Positions 27,304-38,194 of a stretch of 64,000 bases of DNA are shown here, piece after piece (the stretch's first letter is position 1; each line of letters begins with the position of its first letter). The stretch comes from Ruminococcus sp. (lineage in GTDB: Bacteria > Bacillota > Clostridia > Oscillospirales > Ruminococcaceae). Under the pieces are notes generated by a model, which worked only from the letters and a program-made list of their open reading frames with translations, did not search any database and was not told the origin of the DNA. Location of the stretch: the NCBI GenBank assembly GCA_017525915.1, contig JAFXSC010000016.1, forward strand, positions 1 to 64,000, written 5' to 3'. A program made the translations under genes and the position numbers.

Positions 27304-27332
27304 TTGACAAATGCCCCAATAAATGCTATACT
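27304..27332 (+). promoter_or_regulatory. Consensus promoter of the CotH-dockerin gene
   Basis: TTGACA (27304-27309), 17-bp spacer, TATACT (27327-27332). Confidence 0.85.
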
Positions 27333-27344
27333 TGACCTAATAGC

Positions 27345-27365
27345 GCACATAAATCCGTTATGTGC
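27345..27365 (+). other. 5'-terminal hairpin of the CotH-dockerin mRNA
   Basis: Perfect 8-bp stem GCACATAA-ATCCG-TTATGTGC, starting about 6 nt after the predicted transcription start and ending 9 nt before the ribosome site. Confidence 0.5.
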
Positions 27366-27387
27366 TCATTTTCGGGAGGACAATGCT

Positions 27388-30084
27388 ATGAATCTTTTAA
27401 ACCTTAAAAAGGCTGCCGCCGGGATAATGAGTCTCGCGCTCATCATCGGCACTTCCGGCTATATGCCTTCGCCTGCAAGGGCAAACGCTGCTTCCGGCAG
27501 CGTCACCATCAACGAGGTCTGCGCCAAGAACACCTCGTACAACATCAAGGGCGGTCTCTATGACTGGGTCGAGCTCTACAACAGCTCATCCTCCGCTGTG
27601 GACATCAGCGGCTGGGGTCTCTCAGACAAGGCTTCAAAGCCCTACAAGTACACCTTCCCGGACGGTACTTCCATTCCTGCCGGCGGAAGGCTCATGATAG
27701 CCTGCGACAGCGATGCCGCTGCAAGCGACCCTTCTATCGCCCCGTTCGGGCTTTCAACATCGGGCGAGACGCTTACCCTTACCGACAAGAACGGCAATGC
27801 AGCTGATACCATCACTTTTGAGTCGCTCGCGGCTGACGCTTCATACGGTCAGTACCCTGACGGAAGCGGCGAATACTTCACGCTCGCGGTTACTCCTTCC
27901 TCGCCTAACTCTGCACCGCAGGGAGCAAATGCCGTAAGACTTCCCGGCTTCTCAAAAGAGAGCGGCTTCTATTCAAGCGAGTTTTCACTCACGCTCACAG
28001 CTCCCGAGGGCTGCACGGTGTACTACACCACTGACGGAAGCGACCCGACCACATCTTCCGAGAAGTACGCCGCACCTATCAGAATAGCCGACTGCTCGTC
28101 CAATCCAAACGTTTACAGTGCAAGAACGGACATCAGTGCAAGCCAGGTCACTGCCCCGAAGGACCTCGTTGACAAGGCTGCCATAATCCGTGCCGTAGCC
28201 GTTGACGCACAGGGCAGAGTTAGTGATATCGTGACAAAGACTTATTTCGTTGGCTCGACTGATACTTCCTACTACAAGAATATGAAGGTCGTTTCGCTCG
28301 TTACCGACCCGGATAACCTTTTCGACTACGAGAAAGGCATCTACGTCAAGGGCAAGATCTACGACGACAAGTACGGTCAGTCCCAGAACCCGCAAGATCC
28401 CGATGATCCCGGTCAGCCCGGTTTTCCCGGATTTCCCGGCTTCCCCGGCGGTGGCGGCGGCGGCTGGGGCATGGTCAACACATGGGAAATGGAAGCCAAC
28501 TACACCCAGCACGGCAAGGACTGGGAGCGTCCGGCAAGCTTTGAGCTTTTCGAGAACGGTCAGAGTGTCCTCACACAGGACGTAGGCATCCGCATAAAGG
28601 GCGCTGCTTCGCGTTCATACGCACAGAAGAGCTTCAACGTATACACCCGCGCAGACTACGGCAAGCCTGAATTCGAGTACGATTTCTTTGACGGCAAAGC
28701 CACCAAGCAGAAGAACGGCAAGTCAATAAAGAAATTTGACGGCATCACCCTCCGCAACGGCGGAAACGACAACAGCTACACCTTCTTCCGCGATTCGATA
28801 AACCAGTCCCTCGTTTCGGACAGGGCAATGGCTACCCAGACCACAAGTGAGTGCCTCGTCTTCCTTGACGGCGAATTCTGGGGTATCTACCAGATAATTG
28901 AGAAGGTCAGCGATGACTACCTCAGCAGCCACTACGGCATAAACAAGAGCGATGCCGTTATCATCAAAAACGGCGAGGTCGAGGAGGGCGACGCTTCCGA
29001 CCTTGAAAACTGGCAGCAGCTCGCAAAATACTGTGCCTCGACCGACCTCACGAACTCCGAGGCTTACGGCAGAGTGTGCCAGCAGCTCGATATACAGAGC
29101 TATATCGACTATTTCGCTGCTCAGATATACTGGAACAATACAGACTGGCCGCAGAATAATTTCGCAGCATGGAAGACTGCCGTGACCGACAGCGAAAATC
29201 CCTTCGCAGACGGAAAGTGGAGAATGTTCCTGTTCGATACCGAGCTTTCATCAGGTATGTACGGCAACGATGCCGCTGTTGACAGGAACTCCTTCGACCG
29301 TATTTCACGGAATACAGACGATGAGAGCCGTATGTTCATAAGCCTCATGAAGAATGAGGAGTTCCGCGAGCAGTTCAACCTTACGCTCATGGACCTCGCT
29401 AACGAGAACTTCAGCGATAAGCACGTCACTGAAAAGATAAATTTCTACGACAGTACCTACCACCAGCAAATAGTTGACACTCTCGAACGCTTCCACAGCG
29501 GCTCCGGCTCGTTCTTCGGCGGCGGCGGAAATACCGAGAGCACATACAATAACGAGCTCAACACCCTCACAAGCTTCTATTCGCAGAGATTCAGCAGATT
29601 GATGCAGCATATGCAGCGCTCAACCGGAATTACCGGTCAGGCAAACACCCTGACTGTCAAGAACGATATCTCGTCCGGCGAAATCAGCCTCAACACCCTC
29701 AAACTCGCTGACAAGTACAGCACCTGGTCGGGCAAATACTTCTCCGACCAGACCGTTCACATCACCGCTCAGCCCAAGGAGGGCAAGACCTTCGACCACT
29801 GGGAGGTTTCCGGAGTAACGCTCAGCTCTGCACAGCTCAGCAGCCCGTCCATCGAGTTCAAGCCCGAAAGTGATGTTACTGTTACTGCCGTTTACAAGGG
29901 CGGAAGCTCCGTTCTTCTCGGCGACTACAACGGCGACGGTACTGTTGACACTGCCGATATCGTTACGCTTTCAAATTACCTCAAGGGCAAGGTCAGGACC
30001 CATGCCGACACCGATATGAACGGCGACGGCAGAACTACCGTTTACGACCTTATCCTTCTTAAAAGAAAACTTTTCCAAAAATGA
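27388..30084 (+). CDS. Dockerin-bearing CotH-family secreted kinase with lamin-tail domain
   Basis: 898 aa, secreted. Signal peptide about 1-33; lamin-tail domain about 40-165 (TINEVCAKN...YDWVELYN...DISGWGLSD); chitobiase C-terminal-like repeat about 190-290 (CTVYYTTDGSDPTTSS); a Gly/Pro-rich, collagen-like spacer about 336-360; CotH domain about 361-735 with GIRIKGAASRSY, TDWPQNN (about 585) and FLFDTELSSG (about 615); a bacterial repeat domain about 755-840; dockerin about 845-898 (GDYNGDGTVDTADIV). CotH proteins are atypical kinases; Bacillus CotH phosphorylates spore-coat proteins. The dockerin means this one is built into a cellulosome or cell-surface complex; its substrate is unknown. 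The ATG at 27388 has GGGAGGA upstream; the longer reading to 27304 starts inside the promoter. Confidence 0.88.
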   Translation: MNLLNLKKAAAGIMSLALIIGTSGYMPSPARANAASGSVTINEVCAKNTSYNIKGGLYDWVELYNSSSSAVDISGWGLSDKASKPYKYTFPDGTSIPAGGRLMIACDSDAAASDPSIAPFGLSTSGETLTLTDKNGNAADTITFESLAADASYGQYPDGSGEYFTLAVTPSSPNSAPQGANAVRLPGFSKESGFYSSEFSLTLTAPEGCTVYYTTDGSDPTTSSEKYAAPIRIADCSSNPNVYSARTDISASQVTAPKDLVDKAAIIRAVAVDAQGRVSDIVTKTYFVGSTDTSYYKNMKVVSLVTDPDNLFDYEKGIYVKGKIYDDKYGQSQNPQDPDDPGQPGFPGFPGFPGGGGGGWGMVNTWEMEANYTQHGKDWERPASFELFENGQSVLTQDVGIRIKGAASRSYAQKSFNVYTRADYGKPEFEYDFFDGKATKQKNGKSIKKFDGITLRNGGNDNSYTFFRDSINQSLVSDRAMATQTTSECLVFLDGEFWGIYQIIEKVSDDYLSSHYGINKSDAVIIKNGEVEEGDASDLENWQQLAKYCASTDLTNSEAYGRVCQQLDIQSYIDYFAAQIYWNNTDWPQNNFAAWKTAVTDSENPFADGKWRMFLFDTELSSGMYGNDAAVDRNSFDRISRNTDDESRMFISLMKNEEFREQFNLTLMDLANENFSDKHVTEKINFYDSTYHQQIVDTLERFHSGSGSFFGGGGNTESTYNNELNTLTSFYSQRFSRLMQHMQRSTGITGQANTLTVKNDISSGEISLNTLKLADKYSTWSGKYFSDQTVHITAQPKEGKTFDHWEVSGVTLSSAQLSSPSIEFKPESDVTVTAVYKGGSSVLLGDYNGDGTVDTADIVTLSNYLKGKVRTHADTDMNGDGRTTVYDLILLKRKLFQK

Positions 30085-32821: not shown

Positions 32822-34933
32822 ATGATCAACACATGGGCAAAGGAATGGGACGGCTTCAATGAAGGCCGTTGGAGCAGCACTGCGACCTCAGTCAACGTGC
32901 GCGATTTCATCAAGAAAAACTATACTCCCTACGACGGCGATGAGAGCTTCCTCGCACCGCCTACCGAAGCCACAAAGAAGCTCTGGGACCAGGTAATGGA
33001 CCTCTCCCGTCAGGAACGTGAGGCGGGCGGCGTGCTTGATATGGACACCGAGATAATCTCCACTATCACTTCCCACGGCGCAGGCTACCTCAACAAGGAT
33101 CTTGAGCAGATAGTAGGTCTCCAGACGGACAAGCCCTTCAAACGCGCTCTCCAGCCGTTCGGCGGTATCCGTATGGCTCAGCAGGCCTGCAAGGAGTACG
33201 GCTATGAAGTCGATCCGAAGGTCGTTGAGATCTTCACCAAGTACAGAAAGACTCACAATCAGGGCGTTTTTGACGCCTATACCCCTGAGATGCGCCTTGC
33301 GCGCCACTCGGCAATACTCACAGGTCTCCCGGATGCTTACGGCAGAGGACGTATCATCGGCGATTACCGCCGTATCGCGCTCTACGGTACTGACCGTCTC
33401 ATTGCTGACAAGAAGCACCAGATAGATACCTCCCTCGTAAGGATGACATCAAAGAATATCCGTCTCCGCGAGGAGCTTGCCGAACAGGTCCGCGCTTTGC
33501 AGGACCTCAAGCAGCTCGGCGATATCTACGGCTTCGATATCTCAAAGCCTGCAGCTACCGCAAAGGAAGCAGTTCAGTGGCTCTATTTCGGTTATCTTGC
33601 CGCAGTCAAGGAGCAGAACGGTGCAGCTATGTCACTCGGACGCACCTCGACCTTCCTCGATATCTATATCCAGCGTGACCTCGACCGCGGTATCCTCACT
33701 GAGGAACAGGCTCAGGAGCTCATCGACCACTTCATCATGAAGCTCCGTATCGTTAAATTTGCCCGTACACCTGAGTACAATTCACTGTTCTCCGGCGACC
33801 CGACATGGGTCACTGAATCTATCGGCGGCGTTGACGTTGACGGTAATCATATGGTAACGAAGAACAGCTTCCGCTACCTCCATACTCTTGAAAATCTCGG
33901 AACTGCTCCCGAGCCGAACATGACTATTCTCTGGTCTACGAAGCTCCCGAGAAAGTTCAAGGAATACTGCGCCAAAATGTCCATAAAGACCTCATCCATA
34001 CAGTACGAGAATGACGATATGATGCGCGTTATCCACGGTGATGACTACGCTATCGCCTGCTGTGTATCCTCTATGGTGGTCGGCAAGGAGATGCAGTTCT
34101 TCGGAGCAAGAGCCAATCTCGCGAAGTGTCTGCTCTACGCTATCAACGGCGGTGTGGACGAACGCCTCGGCATTCAGGTTGGTCCGAAGTACCGTCCCGT
34201 TGACACTGAATACCTTGACTTCGATGATGTATGGGAAAAGTACATGGATATGATGGAATGGCTCGCAGGGCTCTATGTCAATACCCTCAACGTTATCCAC
34301 TATATGCACGACAAGTACAGCTATGAGAGGGTACAGATGGCTCTCCACGACCGCGACGTAAAGCGCTATTTCGCAACCGGTATCGCAGGTCTGTCAGTCG
34401 TTGCCGATTCGCTCTCGGCTATAAAATATGCAAAGGTCAAGCCCATCCGCAAGGATATCGAGATAAAGGACAAGGCAGGCAATGTCATTGACGTTGCAAA
34501 GAACGTTGTTGTTGATTATGAGGTTGAGGGTGACTTCCCCAAATACGGAAACAATGATGACCGCGTTGACCAGCTTGCAGTTGCCGTTGTGCGCAAATTC
34601 ATGGAGAACGTCAAGAAGCACCACACCTACCGCGACAGCGTTCCCACAATGTCGATACTCACTATCACTTCAAACGTTGTTTACGGCAAGAAGACCGGCA
34701 ATACCCCCGACGGCAGAAAGCAGGGCGTACCGCTCGCTCCCGGAGCTAACCCGATGCACGGCAGGGATACCCACGGTGCTGTTGCTTCGCTCTCATCTGT
34801 TGCAAAGCTGCCCTTCCGCCACGCACAGGACGGTATCTCCAATACCTTCTCCATTATCCCGAATGCCCTCGGCAAGGATATGGACGTATTCGTCGGCGAC
34901 CTCGACCTCGACAAGCTCAGGGGTGAGGACTGA
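32822..34933 (+). CDS. pflB: Pyruvate formate-lyase catalytic subunit lacking the glycyl-radical domain
   Basis: 703 aa against about 740-760 for ordinary PFL. The barrel is complete: the active-site Cys pair is in [10 protein letters not shown] (Cys 413/414; the usual CCVSPM reads CCVSSM), and [18 protein letters not shown] is near the end. The protein then stops at DLDKLRGED, exactly where other PFLs continue into LDGYF...GGHHLNVNV...RVSGYAV. That missing piece is encoded separately at 35208-35447. PFL converts pyruvate and CoA to acetyl-CoA and formate in mixed-acid fermentation. The stop overlaps the next start (TGATG), indicating translational coupling. No pflA activase is in the window. 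Both junctions have good ribosome sites, which argues against a frameshift or assembly error. Confidence 0.95.
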
Positions 34934-35145
34934 TGACTGACACCACAAATGTCACTCCTGCCGGTTCACCGGAGGAGCTTGCAGACCTCATCGACCAGCT
35001 CATGTCAGGCGGCACAGGTCATATCAACATTCTCCCCTCCGGCAGCGGAGAGGGGCTTACAGTCGAAACTGTCAACAGCACTGACTGCGGCATCAAGGGT
35101 GCCTGCTGTCAGCCTACCGAAAACGCCATTGACGAAGAAGAATGA
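34933..35145 (+). CDS. Small acidic Cys-containing protein inside the split PFL operon
   Basis: 70 aa, no recognised family. The start overlaps the pflB stop (TGATG) and GGGGTGAGG serves as ribosome site. The first half (ELADLIDQLMSGGTGHINI) resembles the beginning of the glycyl-radical domain of the next gene ([21 protein letters not shown]), but the RVSGYA loop is absent. In its place is a short tail with CGIKGACC. It could be a decayed or specialised duplicate of the radical domain, a linker between the two PFL parts, or a redox or metal-dependent regulator. Coupling to pflB suggests equal amounts of both proteins. Confidence 0.8.
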   Translation: MTDTTNVTPAGSPEELADLIDQLMSGGTGHINILPSGSGEGLTVETVNSTDCGIKGACCQPTENAIDEEE

Positions 35146-35150
35146 TTGCA

Positions 35151-35177
35151 GTGGACGCCGACTTCAGGCGACACCAC
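35151..35177 (+). other. Intercistronic hairpin before grcA
   Basis: GTGG / CCAC and CGCC / GGCG pair with a small internal loop in the 62-bp gap, without a T-run. It may be a processing or stabilising element that raises grcA output over the upstream cistrons. Confidence 0.35.
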
Positions 35178-35207
35178 AATTACGAATAATAATAAGGAGG
35201 AATCACT

Positions 35208-35447
35208 ATGGATAACCAGAAACAAGTTGACAACCTCATCGAACTTCTCGACGGATATGTTGAAAAGGGCGGTCATCACCTCAACGTGAACGTCTTCACA
35301 AGAGAAACACTCCTCGACGCTCAGGCTCACCCTGAGAAGTACCCCCAGCTCACGGTAAGAGTGTCCGGTTACGCAGTCAACTTCGTCAAGCTCACCAAGG
35401 AACAGCAGGACGACGTTATCTCCCGTACATTCCATTCAAGTCTGTAA
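35208..35447 (+). CDS. grcA: Stand-alone glycyl-radical domain of pyruvate formate-lyase
   Basis: 79 aa. It reads as the C-terminal domain of PFL from [18 protein letters not shown] to the end, with the radical loop RVSGYAVNF (Gly 54) and the tail [12 protein letters not shown]. Escherichia GrcA (YfiD) is a similar stand-alone domain that rescues an oxygen-cleaved PFL. Here the partner PFL has no such domain of its own, so this protein must supply the radical in every catalytic cycle. A strong AAGGAGG lies 7-8 bp upstream. A terminator follows at 35455. Confidence 0.94.
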
Positions 35448-35568: not shown

Positions 35569-35601
35569 AGATTTATCTACTACATCATAAAGGAGATCAT
35601 C

Positions 35602-36036
35602 ATGAAGGTTTCAACAAAAGGCAGATACGCTCTCCGTATGCTATATGACCTTGCTGTTCATCAGGAGGACGGCTACATCTCGCTGAAGGACATTGCCGAC
35701 AGGCAGAATATCTCAAAAAAATACCTCGAACAGATCGTTCCCCTGCTCAACCGCAGCGGTATCCTAAAAACCAACCGCGGCAACCGCGGCGGCTATATGC
35801 TCGCACAGAAGCCTGAGAACTACTCGGTCGGGGACATTCTCCGCGCGACCGAAGGCAGCATCGCGCCTGTCTCCTGCCTTGAATTCGAGCCGAATGAGTG
35901 TCCGCGTGCCGGCGAATGCGCCACGCTTTTCATCTGGGAAGGTATGTACAAGGTGGTCTCCGATTACCTTGACAGCATCACTCTCCAGGATATAATCGAC
36001 CGTTCGTCCTCTGCCGGCAGCGATTACTGCATATAA
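35602..36036 (+). CDS. Rrf2-family transcriptional regulator (CymR/IscR-like)
   Basis: 144 aa. The N-terminal winged helix starts MKVSTKGRYALRMLYDLA with ISKKYLEQIVPLLNRSGILKTNRGNRGGY as recognition region. Three Cys lie at the position of the cluster-binding loop (CLEFEPNEC-PRAGEC, about 92-107), though many CymR-type members have similar residues without a cluster. Location convergent with cysK favours a CymR-like cysteine regulator, but IscR-like iron-sulfur sensing cannot be excluded. AAGGAGAT precedes the ATG at 35602; the longer reading from 35515 spans the promoter. Confidence 0.88.
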   Translation: MKVSTKGRYALRMLYDLAVHQEDGYISLKDIADRQNISKKYLEQIVPLLNRSGILKTNRGNRGGYMLAQKPENYSVGDILRATEGSIAPVSCLEFEPNECPRAGECATLFIWEGMYKVVSDYLDSITLQDIIDRSSSAGSDYCI

Positions 36037-36082: not shown

Positions 36083-37009
36083 TCATTCAAACATAGGTGT
36101 GGAAAGATAACGTTCGCCGGTATCGGGAAGGAGTGCAACGATTGTCTTACCCTTATTCTCGGGACGCTTTGCAAGCTGGATAGCAGCCCATACTGCTGCA
36201 CCGGAGGAAATACCAACGAGTACGCCCTCAGTTCTTGCGATCTTTCTGCCGATGTCAAAGGCTTCCTCATTGCCTACGGGTACGACCTCGTCATAGATGC
36301 CGGTATTCAGCGTCTCAGGAACAAAGCCAGCGCCGATTCCCTGTATCTTGTGCGGACCAGCCTTACCCTCGGAGAGAACGGGCGAGCCCTTCGGCTCAAC
36401 AGCTACGACCTTTACTGCCGGATTCTTGGATTTAAGGTATGCACCTGTACCGCTTACAGTACCGCCTGTACCTACGCCGGCAACGAATATATCGACCTTC
36501 CCGTCAGTGTCGTTCCAGATCTCGACACCTGTGGTCTTTTCGTGGATAGCAGGGTTAGCAGGGTTTGTGAACTGTGAAGGAATGAAGCTTCCCGGTATCT
36601 CGGAAGCAAGCTCCTCAGCCTTTGCGATAGCACCCTTCATGCCCTTTGTACCGTCTGTAAGGACAAGCTCTGCACCGTAAGCCTTCATGAGGTTGCGGCG
36701 CTCCACGCTCATGGTCTCAGGCATCGCAATGATAAGGCGGTATCCTCTTGAAGCTGCGACGGAAGCAAGACCGATTCCTGTGTTACCGCTGGTGGGCTCG
36801 ATGATAACGCTGCCGGGCTTGAGAATTCCCTTTTCCTCAGCATCGTCGATCATAGCCTTTGCGATCCTGTCCTTAACGCTTCCGGCAGGGTTGAAGTATT
36901 CAAGCTTTGCAACGATCTTTGCTTCAAGACCGTATTCCTTCTCGATGTGGGTAAGTTCGAGGAGAGGGGTTCCTCCGATGAGGTCTGTGATATTCTTATA
37001 AATGCTCAT
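36083..37009 (-). CDS. cysK: Cysteine synthase A (O-acetylserine sulfhydrylase)
   Basis: 308 aa, PLP enzyme making cysteine from O-acetylserine and sulfide. Motifs: [14 protein letters not shown] with the PLP lysine (about 45), [26 protein letters not shown] phosphate loop and [17 protein letters not shown] lies 7-8 bp before the ATG. The mRNA has a leader of about 130 nt from a perfect promoter and contains an 11-codon reading frame ending in Arg-Cys-Cys-Arg. In Bacillus, CysK binds CymR as a co-repressor, and here an Rrf2 gene is the convergent neighbour. Confidence 0.96.
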
Positions 37010-37294: not shown

Positions 37295-38194
37295 TTATTC
37301 CTGCGTATTTGCAGGATTTGTGCCTGTCTCGGGCTTGCGCTTTTCAGCGATGGGCTCGAACTCTCCGCAAGGCTTTGTGCCGAGCCATTCAAGTGCGTTC
37401 GCATCGTAGCTTATCCACATCATGATAGCTGCAACGCCGGGGTTCTTGTCAAAGTAAACGTAGTAGTCAAATGTATCACCCTTGTTTACAGTCTTCTTCT
37501 CAGCATAAACAACAGGACCGGTTACATTTGAAACGTCCTGAGTGCCGGCATCCTTGCCAACACCGATCGCACCGTTGAATACCTTTATATCTCTGTTGAG
37601 GCTCTTTCCTCCGACTGTTGAGATATCAGGGTCGATAGCGATAGGATATACTCTCTCAGCAGCATCGTCCTTTACTCTGAACGAAAGCTTTACGAACTGA
37701 CCATTGAAGGTATAGTCAACGTCGTCCTCGATATCGAGCCAGAAGATATATCTCATTATAGTATCATCAACATAGTTATCTTCAACAGGTGCAAGGGTAA
37801 CAGCTTCAGTAACGGGTACAGCAGTTGTTACGACATTTCCGCCTGATTCGGTAACAGACTGTCCGCCTGCTTCAGTAACCGGAATGAACTCAGTTACACC
37901 CTCGCCGCTTGCGTCTGTAACGGGAACGTACTCGGTAGCAGGCTCAGTTGCAACAGGGTCGGGAGCGTTGATATTCTTGCCGCCAAACTGGATATTGCCG
38001 CCGACAGGAGTACCGTCCTGGAACGGAGCAGCGATCATGTTGCCTTCAGCATTGGTAACAACCTCGATAACATCATCGCCTGCTACATCAGCCTTGTCAG
38101 TGCTGCTCTTACTGCCTGCACAGCTTGTGAATGAAGCCATAGCTACGCACATAAACGCAGCAACAGCTATGATCCTTCTTTTTAAAGTCTTCAT
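37295..38194 (-). CDS. Surface lipoprotein with cohesin-like C-terminal strands
   Basis: 299 aa. Signal peptide with lipobox SFTSC (Cys about 25) predicts membrane anchoring by lipid. A low-complexity Val/Thr/Pro/Glu stretch with repeats of the form TE(Y/F)xPVT(D/E)A lies at about 85-140. The C-terminal part (about 150-285) ends with GDTFDYYVYFDKNPGVAAIMMWISYDANALEWLG, which has the pattern of the first strands of cohesin and related Ig-like modules, but the protein stops soon after. A full cohesin would need about 100 more residues. No enzyme motif is seen. It has its own consensus promoter and a leader hairpin. Confidence 0.75.
   Translation of the reverse strand: MKTLKRRIIAVAAFMCVAMASFTSCAGSKSSTDKADVAGDDVIEVVTNAEGNMIAAPFQDGTPVGGNIQFGGKNINAPDPVATEPATEYVPVTDASGEGVTEFIPVTEAGGQSVTESGGNVVTTAVPVTEAVTLAPVEDNYVDDTIMRYIFWLDIEDDVDYTFNGQFVKLSFRVKDDAAERVYPIAIDPDISTVGGKSLNRDIKVFNGAIGVGKDAGTQDVSNVTGPVVYAEKKTVNKGDTFDYYVYFDKNPGVAAIMMWISYDANALEWLGTKPCGEFEPIAEKRKPETGTNPANTQE

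Follow-up and report, generated by a model that had tools for sequence, protein, structure and literature searches.

A pyruvate formate-lyase with a separately encoded glycyl radical subunit and an associated cysteine module in Ruminococcus

Introduction

Pyruvate formate-lyase (PFL) holds a central place in anaerobic fermentation. Its glycyl radical domain, which oxygen can cleave, has so far been seen as an integral part of the enzyme, one that E. coli only patches. In E. coli, PflB retains its own radical domain, and GrcA (YfiD), which carries an additional 60-aa N-terminal part, serves as a spare. The locus described here shares with this system the type of activase and the principle that a stand-alone radical domain restores a PFL barrel lacking its glycine, as laid out in two reports (PMC8683613; PMC12338860). 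In the former study, YfiD did not detectably bind E. coli PFL truncated at residue 695, which carried 32-fold less radical than the form truncated at residue 733; residues 696–733 are needed for YfiD binding. Once activated, the shorter form had wild-type activity. No activation of YfiD alone was detected without cleaved PFL (PMC8683613).

Among ribonucleotide reductases (RNRs), the class II enzyme NrdJa/NrdJb is a radical enzyme split in two (PMC9669993), and in class I RNR a mobile C-terminal pair, Cys754/Cys759 in E. coli, re-reduces the active-site pair (PMC11143221). Here we analysed a stretch of 64,000 nucleotides from a Ruminococcus genome (hereafter the window), in which the PFL barrel and its glycyl radical domain are encoded by separate genes. 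This natural split PFL is the counterpart to the poorly working truncation of the E. coli enzyme.

Results

Organization of the locus

The features of the locus are collected in Table 1. The pflB product scored 1105.8 bits against TIGR01255, passing the equivalog cut-off of 994.2 despite its shortened chain, and covers the profile only up to position 669 of 744, the radical domain being encoded in a separate gene. The break falls inside the Pfam domain Gly_radical (PF01228), with positions 2–50 in the core and positions 50–106 in the small protein; in the alignment to E. coli PFL (1h16), the core reaches residue 680 and the small protein corresponds to residues 677–758. The small protein scored 167.1 bits against NF038360 (GrcA3; cut-off 158), and its Gly54 aligns with E. 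coli Gly734, by the numbering derived from the 1h16 alignment. Its alignment to 6owr begins at 6owr residue 67, and the N-terminal extension of ~60 aa found in GrcA/YfiD is missing.

Table 1. Features of the split PFL locus (positions are those of the window)
Feature	Position	Strand	Evidence
pflB core, PFL barrel without glycyl radical domain, 703 aa	32822..34933	+	TIGR01255
Active-site Cys413-Cys414 codons, TGC TGT	34058..34063	+	sequence
Third gene, 70 aa	34933..35145	+	ORF; Cys motif in C-terminal half
Third-protein Cys52 ... Cys58-Cys59 codons	35086..35109	+	sequence
Shine-Dalgarno sequence of grcA3, AAGGAGG	35194..35200	+	sequence
grcA3, stand-alone glycyl radical domain, 79 aa	35208..35447	+	NF038360, PF01228
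Gly54 codon, expected radical glycine (E. coli Gly734)	35367..35369	+	alignment to 1h16

An earlier note on this DNA had described a 703-aa PFL that keeps the Cys413/414 pair and ends before the radical domain, followed by a separate grcA3 with its own ribosome site and no in-frame link to pflB. The open reading frame, its coordinates and the end of the TIGR01255 match agree with the first part of this description, and the Shine–Dalgarno sequence of grcA3 and the offset of 1 between the reading frames of the two genes agree with the second. The spacing of 274 bp between pflB and grcA3 was also given correctly, but this gap is not empty: it contains a 70-aa ORF whose ATG overlaps the pflB stop codon (TGATG). 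Its product, the third protein, matched nothing in Pfam or NCBIfam at E values up to 1.

Distribution of split PFLs

Matches to NF038360 over its cut-off came from 18 of 119 genomes in the family; the order (295 genomes) gave 20, of which 17 were new, and the phylum (398 genomes) 2, of which 1 was new, which makes 36 genomes. Each of them has GrcA3 in a stand-alone frame of 81–152 aa, directly preceded by a PFL core without radical domain (36/36, one core being cut by a contig end), and no other NF038360 match of at least 86 bits was present in these genomes among the matches listed; fused PFLs score ~100–150 bits. Short radical-domain frames below the GrcA3 cut-off, such as those in G314 (79 aa) and G603 (110 aa), were left out, so that 36 is not the full count of split genomes among those searched.

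In a second genome set, the best 80 matches to the window GrcA3 all lie in split loci. Their record titles name Ruminococcus, R. flavefaciens, Lachnoclostridium, Beduini, Tyzzerella, Ornithomonoglobus and Gastranaerophilales, and the loci span Ruminococcus, Lachnospirales, Erysipelotrichales and Gastranaerophilales. Of the 60 in the order-level group to which one Gastranaerophilales genome belongs, 6 passed the GrcA3 cut-off, and one had a fused frame. The 36 profile-found loci and the best 80 together make up 116 loci, with possible overlap of species between the sets. The split is conserved in the orthologues of both sets, and split PFL is found again in many gut bacteria. The record that bears the name Alistipes senegalensis (L185) and holds a Ruminococcus-like split PFL operon is probably a misassigned MAG.

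The active-site cysteine pair is invariant in the aligned set, in 108/108 split and 48/48 fused PFLs, and the radical Gly54 in 36/36 GrcA3 sequences. Cys436 is invariant in the split cores (108/108) and occurs in 10/48 fused PFLs, and cysteine is absent from GrcA3 in 113 of the 116 loci.

A second grcA3 copy was found in 4 of 16 genomes searched for it (G802, G803, G804 and G806), a further short frame in G805 standing outside this count, and one core half per genome was listed among these 16. The surrounding stretches show no PFL core next to the second copies; that of G806 ends ~0.4 kb upstream at the contig end. The copies (L246, L247, L248 and L249) belong to three Gastranaerophilales genomes and one Erysipelotrichaceae genome, and a gene that was judged by eye to be Crp-like lies near the copy in the three Gastranaerophilales genomes.

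The third gene and the cysteine module

The third gene stands between pflB and grcA3 in 15 of the 36 profile-found loci, the window included. A profile of its product found 14 such genes in the 119 family genomes (the window's own included), each of them in a genome with split PFL; the search gave 15 further rows, weak matches (E 8e-6 to 5e-4) to the first part of GrcA3. By hhalign, the N-terminal half of the third protein matches GrcA3 residues 2–32 (15 rows; probability 95.3, E 2.2e-8). With another alignment the match had a probability of 71.7 and an E value of 4.4e-6, reached by 0 of 300 column shuffles, and with 72 rows it was weaker (probability 41, E 4.5e-5), the shuffle control covering the 15-row set. 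The C-terminal half carries a cysteine motif that ends in, for example, ACCQPTE or AC.SPTLFEGLD. C52 and C58 are invariant in 15/15 sequences, and C-x2-9-C is kept in 70/72 third proteins of the wider set, L213 and L240 having only CC. The third gene has only a moderate dN/dS ratio, with a median of 0.43 across 258 filtered pairs, and an hmmsearch for relatives in the PDB returned nothing useful (best E 0.01).

In 42 loci (20 profile-found, 22 from the best 80), the pflB core itself ends in a cysteine motif, e.g. DCSNGACSSPTLFEGLD, or LDCGCC in Gastranaerophilales, and grcA3 follows the core within 60 nt in 32 of these. The hhalign comparison of third proteins with PFL cysteine tails gave a probability of 22% and an E value of 2e-4, which 0 of 200 shuffles reached, and no relation between the tails and GrcA3 was detected by the same method. 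The third protein and the tails thus look related, if weakly. With an N-terminal half resembling the start of GrcA3 and a C-terminal half resembling the PFL tails, the third protein has the appearance of a cysteine tail transferred from PFL to half of a radical domain.

Counted over 115 loci (L223, which has masked bases, was left out), 72 have a third protein with 2–5 cysteines, and none of their 72 PFL tails contains a cysteine. Where a linked third protein is missing, 42 of 43 PFL tails have at least two cysteines; in the exception, L047 of genome G111, a relative of the third protein is encoded on a different contig, flanked by genes that by eye appear deaminase-like and TetR-like. The best-80 loci comprise 58 of the third-protein type and 22 of the tail type, the third protein having been sought in this set only between pflB and grcA3, and 8 profile matches with a gap below 90 nt were counted as PFL tails. 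CX4C, looked for because of the redox tail of class I RNR, occurs in 31 of the 43 tails and other spacings elsewhere. The linkers of fused PFLs contain no cysteine in any of 48 cases (46 by script, 2 by eye). In the open-licence literature searched, neither the third protein nor this cysteine rule was seen described.

Six places between pflB and grcA3 were folded. RNA hairpins were obtained for L034 (z −2.8), L047 (−4.6) and L048 (−6.1), weaker ones for the window (−2.2) and L124 (−1.8), and none for L040 (0.3); the strong hairpins perhaps set unequal amounts of the subunits.

We tentatively propose that the cysteine module, whether tail or third protein, occupies or polices the empty site of the barrel and keeps the active-site thiols reduced until a charged GrcA3 comes, a proposal to which we would give somewhat less than an even chance. 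The redox role is drawn by analogy with the class I RNR tail; to our knowledge, no disulfide is formed in the normal cycle of PFL. The main rival explanation is that the module is a docking element that recruits GrcA3 or PflA in place of E. coli residues 696–733, with cysteines that are structural or bind metal. The half domain of the third protein, which corresponds to GrcA3 2–32 and about E. coli 677–712, does overlap the YfiD-binding element 696–733 defined in the E. coli study (PMC8683613), but the 42 loci with a short cysteine tail lack any such half, so that the constant feature is the cysteines and not the mimic of the radical domain. Nor is a metal site readily assembled, because the modules mostly have 2–3 cysteines and four ligands would need partners, which GrcA3, cysteine-free in nearly all loci, does not offer. 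We consider docking possible, though less likely than not, and retain the guarding of the open site as our working proposal for the module.

Obligate nature of the split

The source genome (3.09 Mb, 99.9% complete) contains a single PFL-like match. A genome-wide search for a second full-length PFL returned only this truncated one, and no Gly_radical match was found in the genome beyond the two halves, core and GrcA3. A pflA gene is present, unlinked, on another contig (294.2 bits, cut-off 231.75). As the sole PFL-like match of an almost complete genome is truncated, the enzyme appears to be obligatorily split. The earlier note had called it an obligatorily two-part enzyme; the obligate split is borne out by the lack of another PFL and by its conservation, whereas the count of two parts fell short, since the third gene and the cysteine module had been missed. 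We assign a probability of roughly 0.85 to the reading that the PFL is obligately split and that the cysteine module is integral to it.

The name given to the family by NCBI, autonomous glycyl radical cofactor, would suit a GrcA3 that serves merely as a replacement part, like its E. coli counterpart, with activity provided by an intact PFL, but this is highly improbable, given that such a PFL is absent from the 99.9% complete genome and, by radical-domain score among the matches listed, from the other 35 profile-found genomes. We give just as little credence to a sequencing error, a pseudogene or a single gene recoded by frameshift or stop readthrough: the ORFs are at most 60 nt apart in 32 of the 42 loci without a third gene, one frame is shared in 12 of 17 profile-found loci with a gap below 90 nt, and a single frame of 803 aa is listed for G805, yet its locus L211 has a TAA at core codon 700, the relative frames of core and grcA3 are distributed 40/38/38 over the 116 loci, which argues against a readthrough fusion, most loci inspected show a separate start for grcA3 together with a ribosome-site-like sequence, and the split is repeated in all 116 loci, among whose orthologues a continuous PFL frame was not encountered.

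The activase gene pflA follows grcA3 within the surrounding stretch in 30 of 35 profile-found loci. Of the best-80 loci, 75 have at least 900 nt downstream of grcA3 (L223 being counted here as tail type), and pflA lies within 400 nt after grcA3 in 36, lies farther away in 4 and was not found in 35; family membership was confirmed for one downstream gene and for the source genome's own gene. In the window's own lineage, pflA is located away from grcA3.

Phylogeny

On a quick tree of 107 split cores, the position of the module (core tail or third protein) changes at least 9 times, 5 of these changes being forced by starred branches, and smaller trees give 4 changes. A careful tree of 48 rows places the split cores together with two fused PFLs, L076 (G373) and L077 (G348), in one group (99/97), and a single clade of split cores alone was not rejected on this tree (AU p 0.083). 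Neither of the two fused PFLs has a cysteine motif in its linker. Either the domain was rejoined in L076 and L077, or both stand just outside the split clade; their position inside it would mean that the split is not strictly one-way.

Class III RNR and gene neighbourhood

The source genome also encodes a stand-alone 87-aa protein with the radical domain of the class III RNR NrdD (G000:C42:227693-227953; L256:1495-1755, minus strand). It matches only the radical end of NrdD and is identical to the genome's own fused NrdD at 34 of 38 positions. A rubrerythrin-like gene follows it, and a Crp/Fnr-type regulator adjoins. The genome's NrdD being intact, the 87-aa protein is possibly a spare part for RNR. 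A more distant relative (33% identity) is encoded at G000:C42:12647-12904.

A search of the 119 family genomes with the 87-aa protein gave ~40 matches with the radical motif in a short frame of its own. In 30 of the 31 short-frame loci examined, an NrdD core without radical motif lies directly upstream, the remaining locus (L309) having no NrdD core within 3.5 kb upstream; these loci were picked for the short frame, and 30/31 is therefore not a frequency of splitting. The radical peptide of the split NrdDs (L279-L287, L291-L308 and L310-L312) has ~45–60 aa and its own ORF downstream of the core. At least two further cysteines are present in the core tails of 19 of the 30 and are not in 11, and CGC stands next to the last residue in 10 of the 19.

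Just downstream of grcA3 in the window, an Rrf2-family regulator is encoded at 35599-36036, followed by a convergent PLP-dependent (cysK-like) gene at 36083-37009. The Rrf2 regulator was considered as a part of the system and dropped, as it is not among the six neighbour clusters that are present in at least 8 of the best-80 loci. Two cellulosome-type parts also lie near the pfl locus, a CotH protein with a dockerin domain (27304-30084) and a protein whose match to a cohesin domain is weak (37295-38194).

Discussion

The data suggest an enzyme in which the pflB core would provide the barrel and the Cys413/414 pair and GrcA3 the sole glycyl radical domain. We propose that GrcA3 enters the open barrel as a docked subunit, receives its radical through PflA and hands it on to the core. 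As the radical resides on a separate 79-aa protein, a domain cleaved by oxygen could be swapped, and the whole enzyme would not have to be discarded; such an exchange gains plausibility from the second grcA3 in a quarter of the genomes searched for it. The idea of the earlier note that the activase acts on the free small protein appears doubtful, because E. coli YfiD was not detectably activated without cleaved PFL (PMC8683613). The natural cores resemble the poor 695 truncation of the E. coli enzyme, and something must compensate for this. Judging from homology, the cysteine module, which is the core tail in some loci and a third protein here, would sit at the vacated junction and could make up for the E. 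coli-like deficiency both as a placeholder and as a thiol guard.

It is conceivable, though to us doubtful, that split glycyl radical enzymes of this group of bacteria, PFL and at least often class III RNR, combine a disposable radical subunit with a cysteine-pair guard, on the core tail or on a protein resembling the radical domain, that holds the open site and re-reduces it. That the cysteine module recurs suggests an unstudied form of radical-enzyme protection, perhaps common to class III RNR in relatives, and a lineage that relies on a separate radical subunit makes the delivery, loss and replacement of the radical directly testable.

A split of this kind has some precedent. NCBI lists GrcA3 as family NF038360 (rad_fix_GrcA3), whose cut-off the window protein passes and whose model names the small protein alone. 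In the PDB, the core is matched best by the formate acetyltransferase chains 38la_A and 38lb_A, neither of which GrcA3 matched at E 0.001; both thus appear to lack the radical domain. 38lb_A, compared up to its last 39 residues, has CDMC in its tail, and 38la_A ends right at LGKED, which may be an engineered cut. The earlier note knew of no described obligate split PFL; our search of the open-licence literature, a scope with subscription journals and preprints outside it, likewise found no paper on a split PFL among the hits listed, but the GrcA3 family and the two PDB chains were already on record.

The nearest parallel to the cysteine module is the tail of class I RNR, which belongs to a different enzyme and shows a short resemblance that may be convergent. 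Compared with E. coli, where the stand-alone protein backs up a PFL that has a radical domain of its own, the Ruminococcus system differs in that GrcA3 is the only radical domain, is short, and is joined by a cysteine module.
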